DNA of 42,535 bases from a virus. The stretch's first letter is position 1; every line of letters starts with the position of its first letter. The notes under the pieces are model-generated. The model was not told the origin of the DNA. It searched no databases and saw nothing but the letters and a program-made list of their open reading frames with translations. Where the stretch lies: IMG/VR virus record IMGVR_UViG_3300028837_000572, positions 1 to 42,535 of that record; one strand, written 5' to 3'. Below, piece after piece: positions 18,679 to 40,489 of the stretch. Made by a program: the position numbers and the translations under genes.

Positions 18679-19509
18679 ATGAAACAAGTATATAAAATGT
18701 TCGACAGAAAAACAGTAGGACAATCTCATATATATTTAGACCAACTCCCCAGAGAGGCGGGCGGTATTCATAATATGTCTTTCGATAATAACGGAAGATT
18801 AATCAAACGTCTTGGCTTTACCGAACACAATACAGCATCATTAAGTGACGACCATCCGATAACAGGATTGTTTAGATTTTACAAGATTGCCACAGATACT
18901 AAATATACTTTAGTGGTGTGTGATACGATTCTGTATAAATTGGCTAACACTGACCCCTGGAATGGGGAGTCGATAAAAACAGAGTTAACCTCCGAAGCGG
19001 TTATGCACTTTGCTGACTTCGGCAATCGTTGTTATTTTTGTAACGATGAGGATGGTCTTTTCAAGTTTGGAGTAGATACTACTACTGTCAGAACTGTAGG
19101 GATAACCGCACCTGCTGCTAAACCTGAGGGAGTGGGTGGAGCTAATAGTGGTTCATTGGGTGTGGGTAATTATAAATTTTGTTACACTTATGTAGATGAG
19201 GACGGCTATGAGAGTAATCCATCACCTGTTAGTGATGCTATAGATGTGGAAGCAGGAGAAAAAGTTACGTTAACTGTTGTCATTGGGACTGATTCTAAAA
19301 TAGTATCCAGAAATTTTTATCGTACTGCTGTTGGTGGTGCGATTTACTATTATGATGGGGAAGATGCAAATGATGACACCTCTTATGTATCTTCACAAGC
19401 AGATACTGGTCTCGGTACTCAAGTATCTACCAAACACGATACCGCACCTACTTCACCACAGAACTTGATCAAACGTGGTTTCAGCGGACTCCTGATAGAC
19501 GAAAGATAA
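18679..19509 (+). CDS. Tail protein, 5' part of a split gene
   Basis: A 276-residue, beta-rich product (QLPREAGGIHNMSFDNNGRL, LTGLFRFY-like blades, YKFCYTYVDEDGYESNPSPV) of the kind found in podovirus tail hub/knob proteins. It ends at TAA 19507-19509 in the middle of a domain. The -1 frame continues with related sequence to 20369, so the gene is split by a frameshift, or by a deletion: the region usually found before the LIVFTE segment seems short. GAAGTGATTAG precedes the ATG. Confidence 0.65.
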   Translation: MKQVYKMFDRKTVGQSHIYLDQLPREAGGIHNMSFDNNGRLIKRLGFTEHNTASLSDDHPITGLFRFYKIATDTKYTLVVCDTILYKLANTDPWNGESIKTELTSEAVMHFADFGNRCYFCNDEDGLFKFGVDTTTVRTVGITAPAAKPEGVGGANSGSLGVGNYKFCYTYVDEDGYESNPSPVSDAIDVEAGEKVTLTVVIGTDSKIVSRNFYRTAVGGAIYYYDGEDANDDTSYVSSQADTGLGTQVSTKHDTAPTSPQNLIKRGFSGLLIDER

Positions 19510-20369
19510 CGGGTCTTGTCGAGCAGGCAAGAAATTTAATTGTATTTACTGAAGATATAGTAATTGTCTTAACAGGCACAGATGAGGATAATTTCACTTT
19601 TAGAAAGTCTTATGCTGGGGATGGGTGTATTGCTACTCGAAGCATACAGAATATCAGTAATTATATTATATTCCTTTCTTTTAACGGATTGATGGCTTTT
19701 AATGGCAGTGAAATTGCGGAAGTTGACGCCAAGTTAAGCAAATATTTGAAAGATAACATAAATTACGCTGCTGCCGGTACTTCCTGTTCTTTTTATTATG
19801 ATGATAAATACATTCTGTCTTATCCTACTAATGCCTCCCATGTTTTAGGTGAAAGTACTGTGCCAAATGAGTCAATATATTTCGATTACAAGACCGGCAA
19901 GACCGGTGTATTTAGTTTTGCTTTTAATGTATTTTCACGCTGGGACAAGGGCGATGACGGGATACAAATAAAGGGTGGTTCAACCACCGAAGGTAGAGTC
20001 TATAATATATTCGATGGACTTGATGATGACGATTCGGCGATAGAGTTTTACGATAGAACAATGCCTTTGGATTTCGGACTACCGGAAGTGGAAAAAAATT
20101 TCTACGAATTACGTGTTAAATTAAAGACCACTACGGCAACGGATTTTAGATTTTACTACACTATTGATGATGGTGGTGAGACCTATGTAGATACACCCAA
20201 TAATCCTGGTGAAGCCGTTGTTGCAGATAGTGAACGCTGGTATGGGTTCAACTTACCCGAAGAAACAAGAGGAAAGAGCATAACTATAAGACCGAGAATG
20301 AGTGACGCATATCAGGCAGAATTTCAGGGTTATATTATCGTTTACGATACTGAACCATTAAGGGTATAA
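19500..20369 (+). CDS. Tail protein, 3' part in the -1 frame
   Basis: The continuation of the previous gene, read one base back. It begins RKITGLVEQARNLIVFTEDI, then IATRSIQNISNYIIFLSFNG and LMAFNGSE, a familiar ITGL...LLVFTE...FLS..G..AFNG run of tail proteins. There is no ribosome site or ATG of its own; the first TTG (19689) falls inside the conserved run. No clean slippery heptamer is visible in the overlap, so mutation, deletion or sequencing error is more likely than programmed shifting. Confidence 0.6.
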   Translation, partial: RKITGLVEQARNLIVFTEDIVIVLTGTDEDNFTFRKSYAGDGCIATRSIQNISNYIIFLSFNGLMAFNGSEIAEVDAKLSKYLKDNINYAAAGTSCSFYYDDKYILSYPTNASHVLGESTVPNESIYFDYKTGKTGVFSFAFNVFSRWDKGDDGIQIKGGSTTEGRVYNIFDGLDDDDSAIEFYDRTMPLDFGLPEVEKNFYELRVKLKTTTATDFRFYYTIDDGGETYVDTPNNPGEAVVADSERWYGFNLPEETRGKSITIRPRMSDAYQAEFQGYIIVYDTEPLRV

Positions 20370-25271: not shown

Positions 25272-28200
25272 AAGGTGTAGATTGGAAAAAATTCGGTTCT
25301 AACGTTGAACAAGTTGCTATCATACATGAACGTTTAACAGGTGAATCAAGAGATGGAGCATTAGCAGAGATTAAAAGTCAAAAAGACTTAAATATATTTT
25401 TTGTCAATCCACCTGAAAAGTATAAAGAAGCAGTCAATTTACAACAGCAATTAGGTGATATACGTATGAAAATAGCTGAGCCAGGTAAGGACATAATAGG
25501 TCAATTTGGTTGGACTGGATTGGTAACAATAATGGGATGGCAGATTTTACCTTTGATATCAAAATTACCTTCTGCTACATTAAATAAAATAGCATATAAA
25601 GTCGAAGGTAAAACCATAAAAGGTAAAGAATTATTTGAAGCTTTAAGAAGAGCTAGGGAAGATCCTCGTGCAGGATTTGGCAAACCAAGTGCGTTTGATA
25701 AAAAAATATTTGCTAAATTTACAGAAGAAGGTGGATTCAAGTCTTTAGCCGAAAGAATGAAGGGAATTACCATAACCGAAGTTACCCATCGCTTTGCTTT
25801 TGGTGATAAATTATATGCTGGCGTTCCCATTGACGAAATAGTTAAATCTATAGTGTCAGCAGGTAAACTTACTAAAGATATTGCCAATGCTTTAAAAGTG
25901 ATGGACCCGGTTGACACAGGACTTGTATTCCAAGAATTGAGTCTTGCTTCACCTGCTATAGCTTCTAAATTAGCTTCTCAATTTGTAGATTTAATGCCCC
26001 AAAAGATAACGAAAATCCCTAAAGTCGAAGAAGAAATGACCCCAGAAGAAGCAGAACAATTAGAAAGATTGAGAGAAGCCAAGATTGTTCCAGGAGAAGA
26101 GATAACCAAAGAAAAAGTATTAGAGAAAGTAGAACCAATAAAATTAGCAAAATTATCAGAACCTGAACAATTAGAAGCAACAATAAAAGGTATAAAACCA
26201 ATATTTTTAACTGGGATTGAAAATCCGAATTATGAGAAACAAGTTAAAATAGCAAAAGAAGCTGGATTGAAAATTAAAATTGGTGATGAAAAACCATATG
26301 CTTGGGATTTAGAGGGAAATGTTAGAGCTACAACAAAAGATGTAGTTATTTATAGACCTGAAAATGAAACACAAGCTATAGAAACATTAGAAATATTAAA
26401 AACACCCACCCAAGAAATAACAAAAGAATATCATAGTAGATTAGGAAGATTATTAGGATATACCGAGAAAGAAATCGAAGAATTTATAAAAGAACCCAAA
26501 CCAATTGCAGAAAAGATAGTGCAAGACCTTACACCAACTGAACCAAAAGTAGAGCCAAAAGTAGAAGTCAAACCAAAAGAACCCAAAATTGATTTAGCCA
26601 CACCCGCACAAATAAAAAAAGCCCATGCTATTGCTAATACTAAAGCAATGATTAGTGAGAAAGGAAAAGTTAAACCACAATATAGGGCAGTAGCCAAAGC
26701 ATTTACAGGTAAAACATCTGTAAAGGAAATGACACCAGAAGAAGCAGAAATGTTTATTGATGCACTCGATAGATTGCCAGAACCTAAATATAAAGCTGGA
26801 AAGTTAGTACCGCCAAGTATACCGACAACTATGAAATTAACAACAGAGGGTTTCTTTCAGAAAAAATATGGTGAACCCACACCTGTATGGTTGTTGACTG
26901 ACCAAACTTACTATGCCACCAAATTAGGCATAAAACCATTGGTAGAACCATTTGAAAAAGGTAAGATGGAATTTGATTTGGAATTCAGGCAATCGAGTAG
27001 ATTAGTGGATAAGATGGTTAACAAGTTGAACGATATAGCCAGGACATCTGCCTTTGCAAAGATAAAATCAAAGATAAAAAATATCCCCACTAAAGCTGAA
27101 TCTAATATGGCAGAATTAATTAACAAACACGAAGCAACACCACCAGGATTGACTGAAAAAGAGGAAGATGTTTTTAAATATTTCAGGAATTTGGGCAAGG
27201 ATATTTGGAGGAGAGAGAACGAAGTAAGAGAAAAAGTCGACTTACCACCAATCAAATATAAACAGGCATATTTCAGACATACTGCCGATGTTATGGCTAA
27301 AGAGATGTTAGAAGGCAAATACCCATTTCCTCAAGGTATAAAATATTGGGGAGAAAAAATGGTTGGTAAAAAGATATTCAATCCGATGGAATTTCACCGA
27401 AAGTTATCTGATGATTTAATCGACCTGTGGAGCAAGGATATAAGAGCAGTTACCAAAGCAATGTTATGGAGTGGCTTAAAAGAGATTTATTTGGCACAAC
27501 CTGCGAAATTTTTAAATGAACAATTAAATGCTATCTCTAAAGATTTACCAGAATATAAAAACTTATCACCAAGAGACCAGGCGGCTTACGACCAAACCAG
27601 AGTTATGCCTGCCTCTACAAGAAAATGGTTAGTGGATTATGTCAATCAAGTTCTTAAAGGTCAGGAGACGGAATTAGATGCAAGTCTAAATAGGATAGTT
27701 ACCAAAAGTGGATTAAAAGGGATATTTGATAAAGTATTAAGTCCGTTTGGTAGAGCTGTGGGTAGAAAACCTATAACTAATATTTTTATGTTGTCCGGTA
27801 GAGCAGTTATATCTGGCGTAATGGGTTGGGTTCCAAGACAGATAACGAGAAATTCCTTCCAACCGGTACAAAATTTAGCTTTATATGGAATAAAGGCTAC
27901 TATAAAAGCATATCTACCAGCTTCAGTAGACAAGAATTTAAAAGATTTAATGAGTGAAAGTTTATTTTTGAAATCATATACAGGTTTTGAAGAATTACCA
28001 ACTAACTTAATGGGGAAATTAGAGAAAATCTGGCTTGGTCCTTATGGAATAGTAGCGGTTAATAATGCAAAATTAGGAATGAAAGCAGCTTATTGGAATA
28101 CAATAGAATTGATTAGAAATCCTAAATTTAAAAAACACGGATGGGCTGATCCTCAAAGAACCAAAGATACACCAAAAGGATTTTTATATCCAAGTGAAAA

Positions 28201-28825: not shown

Positions 28826-29071
28826 ATGCCAAATTATACAGAACCAGAAAAACCGACTCCAAATTTAACCGAGCCATCAAAGACGGATCCGTCTCATACC
28901 GAACCGCCTAAATCTGATGTGACCTATAATGAACCAAGTGTCAGAGGTTGGTTAACTACACCTGGGTGGTTCGTAAATCCATGGTTTGGTGGGGAAAATA
29001 AAGGTAATCCTTCTTATACTGAACCAGAAAAATCTACACCGAACTATAACGAACCGAGTAAAGGAGATTAA
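28826..29071 (+). CDS. Proline-rich TEPxK-repeat protein
   Basis: An 81-residue protein of repeats YTEPEKPTPNLTEPSK, HTEPPK, YNEPS, then YTEPEKSTPNYNEPSK. A single aromatic insert (GWLTTPGWFVNPWFGG) breaks the array near residues 41-56. Extended repeat linkers of this kind occur beside tail-fibre and ejection genes. The insert could anchor it to a membrane or another protein. AAGAGGTAAATT precedes the ATG. Confidence 0.6.
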   Translation: MPNYTEPEKPTPNLTEPSKTDPSHTEPPKSDVTYNEPSVRGWLTTPGWFVNPWFGGENKGNPSYTEPEKSTPNYNEPSKGD

Positions 29072-29072
29072 T

Positions 29073-32000
29073 ATGAAGAAATTATTATTAGTTTTGGCTT
29101 TAATAAGTATGATTGTATTCCCTATATTTGCGGTAAGCGGGACTTATACTGACAATGAATATTTTTATCTTCCTGGCTATGGTGCTTATGGCACTGATGA
29201 ATGGGAAAAGTATAATGATTATATGCAGATAGCGGATGACCAGATTGAGGCAAACAAAACTTCTGGCGGAAATGAAAATATTCAAGATGTAGCTGGTGGA
29301 ATGTTTAGTGGTAATACCGAGACATTTATTACAGTTACTTACCAAGATGGTGATGGTACGATTGACCTTGTCCTCCCAATTCTTGATGAGGATAATATGT
29401 CCACTAATTCAGACACTCATTTAGCCACTCAACAAAGCATTAAAGCGTATTCTGATGCTTTACACGCACTTCAATACCTTAAAACCGAGATGGATGCTTT
29501 AAGCGAATTAGAAGCAATATGGTCTAAAGATGTAACAGACAGTACAGAACTTGCTGCTGCTCTTGGTGATTACTATTTAAAAACCGCAATCGATACTATT
29601 GGAGAAGTGGAATCAATTTGGAGCAAGGACATAACAGATAGTAGCGAATTAACTTCCGCATTAGCAGACTATTACCTAAAAACCGCTATAGACGAATTAA
29701 GTGAGGTAGAAGCTATATATAGTAAGGATATAATAGATTCGGGAGAATTAGATGCTTTTACAGGGACAACGAATATCGTTACTCTTGGAACTATAACTGA
29801 AGGTACTTGGACGGCTACAGCAATTACAGATTCTTATATAGCTTGGGGAACAGGTGCAGGTCAAGTAAGTGGTGTTGACTTACCTATAATTGATTCTGCT
29901 TTTACCGTAGATGACGGTTTTGACGCAGGACTTCGTAATGGGGTCTATTCTGGACTCGCTGTAACTGATAGTGCTGAACTGAATATATATTGGACAGAAG
30001 GCGTTGCCTATGTAGATGGCTCTATATTTGCAGTAGACGCAGATGCTTCAGAGGATATTGCAAATAATGCTACAACATATTTGTATGTTTTAAAAGATAA
30101 CGCTACCATGCAAGAGAGCACCACTGAACCTGTAACAGGCGTAGTAGGCGAGTTTGCTCTTGTTTGTATATTAAGCACTTACGCAAACGATATTCATGAG
30201 AAATTCGATTTCCCTCTTATGTCGGGAACTTTACGATATGATATGTGGAAGTTCCTCGATGCTATAACTCCTACCGCTTGTGTAGGAGGGTGTGACACTA
30301 CAATAGATACTGACGCAACTCTTGCTAACGATTTTAAGATAACAACTGGAACGTATTATACAGATGTACTCGAACTAAATACTATATCATCTATCCTTTA
30401 TTCTTCGACAGCAACTCATGACGGCACAAATGTAACAGCTTACTATCATAGTGCAAGTGCATGGACAACTGGTGCTGAAGCAGGAATTAGTTTTACTCAA
30501 TGGGATAATGGCACTCAAAAGACAAATACAGCAGCTAATAAGTGGTATACAGGTTGGATTTACATTGAGGATGGAGATACTTTAATATATGTATATCCTC
30601 AGACCGAACACGCCTCTGAAGGAGATGCTTTGGACGAGGCTGCACAGTTCCCCCCATATCATGAAGGTATAATATTGCCAAGTGCTAAATTCATATTTAG
30701 GCATGGTGAATCTGCTTTTGGTGCAAGAGCTTATATTATTGATATCAGACCATTCTTTGGATACGGTGATGGTGCAACAGCTCAAATGATTTACCAGACT
30801 GTAACAGGTGATAGCGGAACTACAACAGCAACAGCTTCAGATGACTCTATTGCCATAGTAGGTGATGGTATAGCAACTACGGCAATTACAGCAGACACGA
30901 TCACGGTAACAGCTACAGAAGTAGACTCTGTAGTCGGTGCAGTAACAGGTATTGTAGAAGCTGATGGTGCTGGTAATATAAGTGCTGCAACAGCAGGAAC
31001 AGATTATGCAATTCCAGGGGCGAATGATGATATAACTTCGATGACTGGATTAAGTAATGACGGAATACCTTTAGCTAAAGTGGCTAATGCTGCAAGTGAT
31101 GGGGCTAATTCGGACATCACTTCTATGACTGGACTAACTACTCCTCTTGCTGGTGTTTATGGTGGTACAGGTAAAGCTACTATAACAGATGAAAGTTTTC
31201 TAAAGGGTGGTGCTGGCAATACTTATGAAGAAAGAACTATTGCCGAAGTAAAGACAGATTTAGCTTATCAACTATCTGATTTAAGTGATGTTAATACTTC
31301 TACTGCTACTGATAAATTTGTATTAGTTGCTGATGGTGTTGACTTTGAAAGCAGGCAGTTAACAAGTGACGACTTATCCGACGTAGCTTCTATTGCTATG
31401 TTAGATGAGGCTGAGACGGTTACAGGGGGGTGGACTTTTAATGACTACCTTTATATAAGTGGGATTCATGATGCATCTGAACCTTATATTATATTTAATA
31501 GAAAAAGAGATGGAGACCCGTCTGATAACGTTGCCGATACTGACATATTAGGTGTTTTTGAGTTTTATGGTTATCATACTGATGGGTATGACTTTGGAGC
31601 AATGATTCGTGCTACTGTTGACGGAACTCCTGGCAATGCAGATATGCCGACAAAGTTAGAATTTTTTACTACTCCCGATGATGATAACTCTCCAGTTCTA
31701 CGTCAGGCAATAGACAACGCAGGCAATATCAAAATGGGTGATGGTGTCTGGACTAATTTCATTAATGTTAGTGCTGGTGGAGTATTAACTTTAGAAGGAA
31801 CTGCAAATATAGAAGGAGTAGATGCAACTGAATTAGGCTATGTCGATGGAGTAACAGAAGATATACAAACCGCCTTAGATACTATACTTGCCAATGTGGT
31901 AGAAGATACATCACCTGAATTAGGTGGTGAAATGGATGCAGGTGCTCATTCAATCGGTTTTACTTTACAGACCGATACAGGGACAGGTGCAAAAACTATA

Positions 32001-32267
32001 GATTGGAAATTAGGTAATAAAATGAAATTTACCTTTGGTGCTGGCAATGTAACTTTTACGTTTACCTCACCTACAAATCCCTGCACACTTATGTTGACAT
32101 TAATCCAAGATGTCACAGGTTCAAGAACTGTAACATGGCCTGCAACCGTAAAATGGCCTGGTGGAACAGAGGCAACATTATCGACTGCTGCAAACGCACG
32201 AGATAAGGTAGCTCTCGATTGGGATGGTTCTCAATATGATGCTGTTATAAGCAAGGATTTTAAATAA
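29073..32267 (+). CDS. Tail-fibre-like protein with signal peptide
   Basis: A 1064-residue protein. AAAGGAGATTAAT fixes ATG 29073, giving a textbook Sec signal peptide (KK, then about 16 hydrophobic residues, FAVSG). Residues 114-129 (DTHLATQQSIKAYSDA) are the fibre motif; 145-228 hold nearly three copies of a 31-residue unit ending DYYLKTAID. A beta-rich shaft with repeated TSMTGL and WTATAI motifs follows, and the last 85 residues (GNVTFTFTSP ... TVTWPATVKWPGG) are a known fibre-tip type domain. An export signal on such a fibre is odd. A longer frame to 28986 overlaps the previous gene and lacks a ribosome site. Confidence 0.7.
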   Translation: MKKLLLVLALISMIVFPIFAVSGTYTDNEYFYLPGYGAYGTDEWEKYNDYMQIADDQIEANKTSGGNENIQDVAGGMFSGNTETFITVTYQDGDGTIDLVLPILDEDNMSTNSDTHLATQQSIKAYSDALHALQYLKTEMDALSELEAIWSKDVTDSTELAAALGDYYLKTAIDTIGEVESIWSKDITDSSELTSALADYYLKTAIDELSEVEAIYSKDIIDSGELDAFTGTTNIVTLGTITEGTWTATAITDSYIAWGTGAGQVSGVDLPIIDSAFTVDDGFDAGLRNGVYSGLAVTDSAELNIYWTEGVAYVDGSIFAVDADASEDIANNATTYLYVLKDNATMQESTTEPVTGVVGEFALVCILSTYANDIHEKFDFPLMSGTLRYDMWKFLDAITPTACVGGCDTTIDTDATLANDFKITTGTYYTDVLELNTISSILYSSTATHDGTNVTAYYHSASAWTTGAEAGISFTQWDNGTQKTNTAANKWYTGWIYIEDGDTLIYVYPQTEHASEGDALDEAAQFPPYHEGIILPSAKFIFRHGESAFGARAYIIDIRPFFGYGDGATAQMIYQTVTGDSGTTTATASDDSIAIVGDGIATTAITADTITVTATEVDSVVGAVTGIVEADGAGNISAATAGTDYAIPGANDDITSMTGLSNDGIPLAKVANAASDGANSDITSMTGLTTPLAGVYGGTGKATITDESFLKGGAGNTYEERTIAEVKTDLAYQLSDLSDVNTSTATDKFVLVADGVDFESRQLTSDDLSDVASIAMLDEAETVTGGWTFNDYLYISGIHDASEPYIIFNRKRDGDPSDNVADTDILGVFEFYGYHTDGYDFGAMIRATVDGTPGNADMPTKLEFFTTPDDDNSPVLRQAIDNAGNIKMGDGVWTNFINVSAGGVLTLEGTANIEGVDATELGYVDGVTEDIQTALDTILANVVEDTSPELGGEMDAGAHSIGFTLQTDTGTGAKTIDWKLGNKMKFTFGAGNVTFTFTSPTNPCTLMLTLIQDVTGSRTVTWPATVKWPGGTEATLSTAANARDKVALDWDGSQYDAVISKDFK

Positions 32268-32276
32268 GGAGAAGAT

Positions 32277-33914
32277 ATGAAAAAATTTATATTACCATTA
32301 ATATTAATATTGTTTTTATCCTTTACATTAATAGGCAATTGTGATTGGCTTGAAGGTTGGGATTATAGAATAGAACTTAAAATTGAAGATTATGCTGGTG
32401 ATATTGGTCATGATTCAAAATATCCGACTGCACATACAGCTGATTATGTTAAAGCAACTACAACATTTGGAGCAGGTTATTATCCATATTATGCTACTGA
32501 CCCTGAACGTAGTGTAACTGGAGGTTGCAATGGTCTCGAATGGTTGTCTGATGATACAGAGGTAACCAACCAGAGGTTTCACATTGATTTGGGAAGTGCA
32601 AAAATTATAAGCAGGATATACTATGAAAATTCACATAATAGTGGGGCTGATACAAACCATGGGGTGCAAAACTTTATTTTTCAGGGAAGCAATACGGGAG
32701 CAGGAACTTTTGATGATTTAGTCTATGCCAATGATGAGGGCTGGACAACCCTTACAACCTCACAATCAACCTTTGATGAACATGTTGGTGCTGACCAAGC
32801 CGACCCAAAATATATAACAGTTACAAATAATACTGCTTATAGATATTATGCTTTTAAATTTGCAGATAATTATGGTGACGCTACTTTTATGGGAGTTAGA
32901 AGAATAGAATTGCAAGAAGGTGTTACGTGGTTTCCCGTAACAGTATTTTTAACTGATTCACAGGCGGAAGAAGTATTTACAGAGTTAACTACAGATGCAG
33001 AGTACCTTAAAACAGCAGTTACTAAAGCAGATGGTACAACACAATTATACGCTGAATTTGAAATATTTGATGTTTCAGAAACTAATGGGATATTTCATAC
33101 ATCCAGAGATGGATGGACTGTTGATGCTAATACTTCAATTTTTCTTTACTATGATTCGACACACGCTGATAATACAGATTATATTGGTGCAATAGGTGCA
33201 AGAACAGAAGTCTGGGATGGTAACCATAAAATCGTTTATCATCAGGCTGACCTCACTACATCTTCAGTAGAGGATAGCACGAGTAATAGCAATGATGGCA
33301 CAAAAGCAAGTGCTAATAATCCCGTTGAAGCTATAGGAAAAATAGGTCAGGGGCAAATTTATGATACTAATTCAGACGCAATATATTCAGGAGCTGCCCT
33401 TGATGCTATGAGTAATTTCACCTTAGAAACATTGGTGAAATTTTCAAGTGCCGATGGTGGGATTGATGATAAGTTTCTTACCATTGCAGAAATAGGCACT
33501 TATAATGACCCAAGTGTATTTCGATATACCAATGAGACAATTCAAATTTATGCTGATGGAGCTGAAAAAATAGTTAGCACTACCACAATAGCTGATACAA
33601 ATTGGCATCATGTAGCTATTGTAGCTGATGGAACTTATATTAGATTATATATTGATGGAGTAGAGGATGGTAGTTCTCCTATTGCTTACACAGGCAATTC
33701 TGCTAATAAACCACTTCATATAGGTGATAACTGTTTAGGAACAGATACCTTTACTGGCACATTAGATGAGTCAAGAGTAAGTGATACTAAGCGTAGTGCT
33801 GCTTGGGAGAAAGGTTCTTATAATTCGTCATTTGATACTTTATTCACTTATGGGAGTGAGGAAACAGAAGAAGTGGAAGAAGAAAATGCAATATTCTTTG
33901 GTTGCAACTTCTAA
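32277..33914 (+). CDS. Exported DUF2341-discoidin-LamG adhesin-like protein
   Basis: A 545-residue protein. Residues 1-22 are a signal peptide. Residues 27-36 (GWDYRIELKI) and 218-305 (WFPVTVFLTD ... SIFLYYDST) are the two halves of a DUF2341 domain, split by a discoidin (F5/8C)-like insert at about 45-215 (FHIDLGSAKIISRIYYENS, RYYAFKFADNYGDATFMGVR). Residues 312-525 form a LamG domain (DSTSNSNDGT, FTLETLVKFS, NWHHVAIVADGTYIRLYIDG). All three are typical of surface carbohydrate binding. It follows the signal-bearing fibre gene by 9 bp. It may be a host-derived adhesin or a secreted fibre component. Confidence 0.7.
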   Translation: MKKFILPLILILFLSFTLIGNCDWLEGWDYRIELKIEDYAGDIGHDSKYPTAHTADYVKATTTFGAGYYPYYATDPERSVTGGCNGLEWLSDDTEVTNQRFHIDLGSAKIISRIYYENSHNSGADTNHGVQNFIFQGSNTGAGTFDDLVYANDEGWTTLTTSQSTFDEHVGADQADPKYITVTNNTAYRYYAFKFADNYGDATFMGVRRIELQEGVTWFPVTVFLTDSQAEEVFTELTTDAEYLKTAVTKADGTTQLYAEFEIFDVSETNGIFHTSRDGWTVDANTSIFLYYDSTHADNTDYIGAIGARTEVWDGNHKIVYHQADLTTSSVEDSTSNSNDGTKASANNPVEAIGKIGQGQIYDTNSDAIYSGAALDAMSNFTLETLVKFSSADGGIDDKFLTIAEIGTYNDPSVFRYTNETIQIYADGAEKIVSTTTIADTNWHHVAIVADGTYIRLYIDGVEDGSSPIAYTGNSANKPLHIGDNCLGTDTFTGTLDESRVSDTKRSAAWEKGSYNSSFDTLFTYGSEETEEVEEENAIFFGCNF

Positions 33915-33926
33915 TAAGGAGATATT

Positions 33927-34418
33927 ATGTGCTTTAAAAACAAATGGACTAAATTTAAGCCAACTACCGAGTATCTATCGGCAGTTAAAGACCTGACTAC
34001 CGTAGATAAATTATATCATTTTATACAAAAATTTAAGCGTAAGGAAGATGTAAAAGATTACTGGCAAGACCCTGAAGAAACGCTTATATTATTGACTTAC
34101 GACTGCGACGATAGTATGAGATTCACCGTAGATGTTTTAAAACGAGTGATGGGAATTGACGCTAAAGGGATAATTAGTAGCGGTTATGATTTTGCAAGAT
34201 GGGGTAATAAGATATGGAATGTTAAGTGCCACGCAATTTGTGTGTTCCCTTACAATGGCAAATTTGCTTTGTTTAGTAATATGGAATTTAAGTCAGGTTA
34301 TAACAGCTATGAAGACGCTTGTAAATATACATTCCCAGGCGGGCTAAAGAGTATGGTAGTGAGGGATTGGCAGGGGAAGGTAGAATCAAGAAAATTCAAG
34401 TTATTCGGAACATTTTAA
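33927..34418 (+). CDS. Transglutaminase-like cysteine protein
   Basis: A 163-residue protein. YDCDDSMRFTVDVLKRVMGI and VKCHAICVFPYNGKFALFSN follow the transglutaminase-like cysteine peptidase layout: catalytic Cys in the xDCDD helix and His in CHAI. The third acidic residue is not obvious (FSN replaces the usual D). It stands directly before the holin candidates, so a cell-wall or virion-processing role is plausible. AAGGAG precedes the ATG. Confidence 0.6.
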   Translation: MCFKNKWTKFKPTTEYLSAVKDLTTVDKLYHFIQKFKRKEDVKDYWQDPEETLILLTYDCDDSMRFTVDVLKRVMGIDAKGIISSGYDFARWGNKIWNVKCHAICVFPYNGKFALFSNMEFKSGYNSYEDACKYTFPGGLKSMVVRDWQGKVESRKFKLFGTF

Positions 34419-39536: not shown

Positions 39537-40076
39537 ATGTCAAAAGTAATTTATGATTTATGTGGTGCAAAAGGAAACTGGAGTAAAAATTACAGAGATA
39601 ACGGATATGATGTAAGAATTATTACTTTACCAGAACATGACGTTAGACTGTTATGCCCACCAGATAATGTTTATGGTATATTGGCTGCCCCACCCTGCAC
39701 TCATTTGGCCGGGAGTGGAGCAAGATGGTGGAAAAAAGCAGGGTTAAATGCGTTATTTGAGGCATTGGCTATTGTAGATGCGTGTCTTAGGATGGTTGCA
39801 ATATGCAATCCGAAATTTTGGTGTTTGGAAAATCCCGTAGGTAGATTAGTTCATTATTTGGGAAAACCTAAAATGTATTTTAACCCTTGTGATTATGGCG
39901 ACCCCTACACTAAAAAAACTTGCCTTTGGGGAAATTTCAATATACCGAAAAAGAATCCGATAAAATCGACAGAAGGAAGCAAAATACATTTATACCCACC
40001 ATCAAAAAATAGGTCAGCTTTAAGGGCAATAACACCAGCAGGTTTTGCTAAAGCATTTTATGAGGCGAATAAATGA
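39537..40076 (+). CDS. Compact cytosine-5 DNA methyltransferase-like protein
   Basis: A 179-residue protein. VIYDLCGAKGNWSKNY is the SAM-binding start, APPC at 51-54 carries the catalytic Cys of motif IV, and LENP at 97-100 is motif VI. The usual C5 enzymes exceed 300 residues; here the target-recognition domain is nearly absent, as in short phage members. It would modify phage DNA against host nucleases, or may bind without methylating. GAAAGG precedes ATG 39537; ATG 39510 has no ribosome site. It overlaps the next gene by 4 bp. Confidence 0.65.
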   Translation: MSKVIYDLCGAKGNWSKNYRDNGYDVRIITLPEHDVRLLCPPDNVYGILAAPPCTHLAGSGARWWKKAGLNALFEALAIVDACLRMVAICNPKFWCLENPVGRLVHYLGKPKMYFNPCDYGDPYTKKTCLWGNFNIPKKNPIKSTEGSKIHLYPPSKNRSALRAITPAGFAKAFYEANK

Positions 40077-40489
40077 AAAAAATAATAATCTTAATTCAAA
40101 TAATAACTATAATAATTTTACTTTCTCTCTCTCCTAAAGCAGAGCAGAAGTATTACTTGATGAATGTTACATTTTATTCCCTGCATGAAGATTGTATATC
40201 CGATAAACACAATGATGGGAAAACTGCAACAAATACTAATATAAGAGAAGGAGTATGCGCTATAAATGTAGATTATATTAATGGGAAATGGGTTGTAAGA
40301 AGTCCTCTAAAGTTGGGTCAAAGAATTCATATTGAAAGTTTAGGGGAATATTCAGTAGAGGATACTGGAAGGTTTGGTGAAGTAAATACAATGCAGGATA
40401 TCTGGACAGTAGATGTTTTTGAACCAGACCACGAGAAAGCGATTAAAGGTGGCAAAGAAGTAAGAAAAGTTTATGTATTGGAGGAATAA
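40073..40489 (+). CDS. Exported 3D-domain (double-psi barrel) protein
   Basis: A 138-residue protein. Residues 1-24 are a signal peptide (KKIIILIQIITIIILLSLSP). The mature part shows the 3D pattern: VTFYS, DGKTATNT, REGVCAINVD, PLKLGQRIHIESLGEYSVED, TGRF, DVFEPDHEKAIKGG, VRKVYVLEE, with aspartates at the expected places. 3D domains belong to lytic transglycosylase-type cell-wall enzymes. As an early gene it may alter peptidoglycan or block superinfection rather than lyse. Confidence 0.65.
   Translation: MKKIIILIQIITIIILLSLSPKAEQKYYLMNVTFYSLHEDCISDKHNDGKTATNTNIREGVCAINVDYINGKWVVRSPLKLGQRIHIESLGEYSVEDTGRFGEVNTMQDIWTVDVFEPDHEKAIKGGKEVRKVYVLEE

Follow-up and report, generated by a model that had tools for sequence, protein, structure and literature searches.

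Matched predicted signal peptides on a tail-fibre-type protein and its partner in a podovirus-like phage and its relatives, and a possible attachment of fibres outside the cytoplasm

The fibre gene, its partner and their surroundings

The IMG/VR virus record IMGVR_UViG_3300028837_000572 comprises 42,535 nt, and this whole stretch, here called the window, belongs to a tailed phage with a dsDNA genome, in which portal, terminase and endolysin are encoded. Its gene set reads as podovirus-like, a label that is our reading of the sequence, and the terminase has its kin in Alteromonas phage ZP6, the Manatee Spring podoviruses and pelagiphage HTVC010P. Upstream of the two genes considered here lie those for a head-tail adaptor/portal, a major head protein and an internal-virion or stabilisation-type protein; downstream, a small membrane protein is followed by an M15 endolysin. 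The order of the genes starting at 25466, 28826, 29073 and 32277 parallels that of a large internal protein, a small protein, gp17 and gp18 in ZP6. No gene besides 29073 and 32277 was found in the fibre and tailspike slots of the window.

Directly 5' of the fibre gene, an 81-aa protein with (N/T)YTEP repeats and without a signal peptide is encoded at 28826..29071 on the plus strand. Similar small T/Y/P-rich repeat proteins, likewise devoid of signal peptides, precede the fibre in four related loci (L009 2391-2675, L002 7723-8001, L210 4963-5196 and L187 1001-1312). They occur in cassettes with signal peptides, such as that of L210, and in cassettes that lack them, such as that of L187; they are perhaps fibre adaptors. 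The conserved neighbour that follows the pair (33927..34418, plus strand) has an 80% identical homologue behind the signal-peptide-less pair of L187. The stabilisation-type tail protein at 18679-20369 was compared with L002 and L009; in the window it appears as two adjacent open reading frames that lie in different frames, and a frameshift is possible.

The mature product of the first gene (29133..32267, plus strand) is a tail-fibre-type protein, in which an N-terminal domain, a shaft module and a C-terminal PHROG 9017 region are distinguished by N-terminal alignment, module homologues and PHROG comparison. Residues 945-1055 match the PHROG 9017 tail fiber protein (E=4.7e-12), and the shaft module, GNTETFITVTYQDGDGTID...DEDNMxSxSxTxLATQQSIKAY, is common to dozens of phage fibres, including structural proteins of pelagiphages. 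Both matches bear out a preliminary description of this DNA that had called the product fibre-like. The gene thus resembles known fibres, and it also stands, like gp17 of ZP6, at the end of the tail and internal-protein module.

The mature partner (32343..33914, plus strand) was described beforehand as a DUF2341-discoidin-LamG protein, and of these three domains the LamG domain (about 33366-33803) is firmly recovered by Pfam (PF13385, 64.8 bits against a curated cut-off of 27.6, E=1.3e-17). The F5/8 type C (discoidin) domain at 32454..32834 (plus strand; PF00754, residues 60-186, E=8.5e-4) is a weak match below the curated cut-off. The Pfam DUF2341 model gave no match at E<=0.1, for which reason the label DUF2341-like refers here to a similarity of pattern only. 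Alignment with the homologues in L211 and L207, from which the discoidin part is absent, indicates that it is an insertion into the DUF2341-like domain of the window partner. The AlphaFold model of the partner has a pLDDT of 33.

At its C-terminus the partner ends with the tag NAIFFGCNF and a stop codon (33885..33914, plus strand). The window and L009 partners have little in common except for the signal peptide and these last residues (NAIFFGCNF vs NAIMFGINF). A DNA pattern for NAIxFGxNF-stop was found on 29 viral contigs, compared with one or two expected according to our estimate from base composition. The tag is found at the C-terminus of many phage proteins that have little else in common (loci L180-L208); these mostly lack a signal peptide and often directly follow a fibre-like gene. 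Some partners with signal peptides have other C-termini instead. The tag may mark a site of docking or of module swapping. A role as outer-membrane beta-barrel signal was rejected, because the tag is found mostly on proteins without signal peptides.

Signal peptides as a matched and facultative prefix

Both genes begin with a predicted Sec signal peptide. In the fibre gene (29073-32267, 1064 aa) it comprises about 20 residues, encoded at 29073..29132 on the plus strand, and reads MKKLLLVLALISMIVFPIFA ahead of VSGTYTDNEY; in the partner gene (32277-33914, 545 aa) it comprises about 22 residues (32277..32342, plus strand) and reads MKKFILPLILILFLSFTLIGNC ahead of DWLEGWDY. All signal peptide calls in this study are heuristic and come from a simple test of n-, h- and c-regions rather than from SignalP. 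Three of the 54 window genes were positive in this test (29073, 32277 and 40073-40489), and 1.3% of shuffled sequences passed overall, with 26/5000 and 21/5000 for the fibre and the partner sequences. Both proteins combine a charged n-region and a hydrophobic core with small residues at the predicted cleavage site, which is ordinary in the fibre (IFA^VSG or AVS^GTY) and less canonical in the partner (GNC^D or nearby). Each of the two ATG codons has its own AAGGAG ribosome site. The pair lacks a lipobox, as the fibre signal peptide ends without cysteine and that of the partner ends in LIGNC, which is not standard; the near-identical signal peptide of the L211 homologue ends in LTGYC, likewise no standard lipobox. 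The signal peptide of the L210 fibre ends in IVGC, a possible lipobox. The clear Sec signals noted beforehand on both proteins are therefore confirmed by the test, the shuffles and the ribosome sites, and also by signal peptides on the homologous fibres of two other phages, L002 and L009.

Of the loci that contain the shaft module, just three have a fibre with a signal peptide (the window, L002 and L009), and the other fibres have cytoplasmic N-termini. As seen in an N-terminal alignment, the signal peptide stands in place of the initiator methionine of a common fibre N-terminus, TTNLxLxKP...NxNxxxID: the L009 fibre reads MKRNVFITIISVLILVCIFAYA followed by RTTTTDLGLIKP, compared with a single M followed by ATLTTNISLTKH in L187 and by PSSFTTNLNLEKP in L018. 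This common domain is kept intact behind the signal peptide in the fibres of the window, L002, L009 and L210. The partners behave in the same way. Signal peptides are found on the partners of L009, L184 and L210, and that of L187 starts with M and AVIDIGS; among the homologues of the window partner, that of L211 has a signal peptide and that of L207 starts with M and LSGWKHY. Relatives without signal peptides (L187, L207, L018 and L041, for example) begin at a methionine near the expected mature N-terminus. Overlooked signal peptides were rejected for L187 and L207, where stop codons lie just upstream of these starts. Relatives starting downstream of the hydrophobic segment, which the preliminary description had regarded as evidence against its reading, do exist in these four loci, yet in the syntenic L187 pair both genes lack the signal peptide, which speaks for a facultative prefix and not for a wrong start. 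The predicted signal peptide is a facultative prefix, set before fibre and partner proteins that are ordinary in other respects.

The state of the two genes is matched also in a wider set. Signal peptides were called on both genes of 39 fibre and partner pairs in related phages, drawn from the tag scan and a second scan with a partner family. They are present on both genes in 14 pairs, on neither in 25 and on one only in none (Fisher p = 6.6e-11, a value that takes the pairs as independent and uncorrected for shared ancestry, and that overstates independence because the pairs are partly related). Some of the rows without signal peptides are weaker, as the partner domain forms part of a larger protein and a rule was used to choose the upstream gene. 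The fibres with signal peptides fall into eight N-terminal types (BLAST cut-off 1e-5), and their genomes are varied: the window, G028 and G001 are podo-like, G007 has an HK97-type capsid and head-tail connector genes, and G014 and several others have tape-measure-type tails, all of these labels being our reading of sequences that in several relatives are contig fragments. Fibre segments up to 75-81% identical are common to different groups, which suggests exchange among phages with overlapping hosts. The predicted signal peptides on both genes, their matched state, their prefix nature and the fibre/tailspike position of the pair can be read directly from the sequences.

Searches anchored on the nearby membrane protein and on the internal virion protein yielded no further fibre pairs. 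A pattern scan of a genome collection gave one phage-like match, a pair without signal peptides and with the NAIxFGxNF tag in a Syntrophomonas MAG (L235), and 11 others that were unconvincing as phage tail genes; a host search with the partner family in about 800 genomes from two phyla gave no match.

Signal peptides occur on further phage proteins. The third positive window gene, 40073-40489, encodes a protein of 138 aa that by eye resembles those with a 3D (DxG...W.VDV) domain and may be exported to act on the cell wall, and a similar protein with a signal peptide is found in G001 (L176 14854-15213, minus strand). Two more such proteins lie between the capsid and tail genes of L002 (4592-6298 and 6317-6775), and the one of 568 aa looks fibre-like. 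In L010 6653-7951, a widespread virion structural protein (PHROG 1645, E=7e-86) carries the signal peptide MRKLIYIFLLLSAVA^YAQ, which is missing from the reference homologues L242 and L243; this may be another, independent instance of virion protein export.

Export and the site of action

Where exported fibres had been proposed beforehand, the export part has been strengthened by the features of the signal peptides, by their presence in relatives and by the agreement between the two genes, so that export of both products is well supported at the sequence level. We give nearly even odds (about 0.48) to the reading that a matched fibre/tailspike-type pair is exported by Sec, cleaved and joined to virions outside the cytoplasm. 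The host Sec pathway would export both the fibre and its partner, and signal peptidase would trim the signal peptide, by which the fibre would regain about the N-terminus of ordinary cytoplasmic fibres. This mature N-terminus would still bind the virion, and the exported pair would attach to virions in the periplasm or the medium, during or after lysis. We infer actual export and cleavage, virion binding by the mature N-terminus and late attachment. The main argument that fibres with signal peptides would still bind a phage structure is that four of them retain the fibre N-terminal domain.

Tailed-phage particles are usually finished in the cytoplasm. There is a precedent for late addition in T4, whose long fibres attach late to finished fibreless particles (PMC3004832). 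Sec-exported tail fibres were not described in the literature searched, outside of which lie most subscription journals and preprints. Extended to the relatives, the proposal that a set of short- and long-tailed phages exports matched fibre or tip proteins by Sec, with the virion being finished outside the cytoplasm, is a tentative one.

In the main competing reading the pair is exported and acts off the virion, being displayed on the infected cell or released. There it would cover or occupy receptors, which might block superinfection or keep progeny from being lost on debris, or it would alter host adhesion. Surface proteins often bind by means of discoidin and LamG domains, and the presence of these in the partner would suit such a role. 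A surface anchoring would also fit the possible lipobox of the L210 fibre and the one or two predicted small lipoproteins encoded just upstream of the pair in the siphovirus-like, tape-measure-type loci L246, L250, L251, L258 and L266. However, the fibres of the window, L002, L009 and L210 retain the common fibre domain behind their signal peptides, many partners keep the NAIxFGxNF tail that is found on phage proteins without signal peptides, and the fibre and tailspike slots of the window are filled by no other gene found. Moreover, the window and 12 of the 14 other records with signal peptides gave no integrase match (PF00589; 13 of 15 in all, records that may be fragments), and a role in lysogenic conversion is therefore not general. 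We consider action off the virion rather unlikely.

An uncleaved hydrophobic N-terminus, which would anchor the fibre in the tail or enter the membrane during DNA entry after cytoplasmic assembly, appears improbable. Hydrophobic N-terminal helices could act as anchors, but a positively charged n-region and small junction residues are what signal peptides typically show, the prefix occurs together on two structurally different proteins and is missing from both in relatives, and an ordinary fibre domain follows it intact. A start-codon artefact or dual start with true translation from 3' of the hydrophobic segment is scarcely credible and was rejected, since, although relatives without this segment exist, both window starts have good ribosome sites and none of 11 genes with signal peptides checked, including both window genes, has a start codon with an SD-like motif near the junction.

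Tail fibres set the host range. If fibres are exported and added after lysis, as in the reading that we prefer, tailed-phage assembly would extend beyond the cytoplasm, and fibres might be shared by several particles or block the receptors of neighbouring cells. With the matched state of two adjacent genes across phage types as a simple marker, such phages can be recognised from sequence and the reading put to a direct test by proteomics.

Comparison with known systems

Filamentous phages offer familiar examples of virion proteins with Sec signal peptides, the coat proteins pIII and pVIII. These phages are assembled at the membrane and have no tails, in contrast to the tailed dsDNA phage of the window with its portal, terminase and endolysin. 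Exported proteins encoded by phages are known as well, namely the superinfection-exclusion proteins Llp of T5 and Ltp of TP-J34, but by their description these are small lipoproteins and not fibre-type proteins in fibre slots. Methanoculleus virus Blf4 encodes, in a tail module, a DUF2341-like protein that is 28.5% identical to the partner over residues 219-393, but this protein has neither a signal peptide nor the NAIxFGxNF tail. The DEDNM...ATQQSIKAY shaft module of the window fibre is also found in fibres of marine phages, such as the pelagiphages HTVC115P and HTVC104P, but all homologues examined outside the window clade have cytoplasmic N-termini. Finally, the tail protein gp17 and the tailspike gp18 of ZP6, a phage with a related terminase, occupy the same slots after a large internal and a small protein as the window pair does, and differ from it in that they start without signal peptides.
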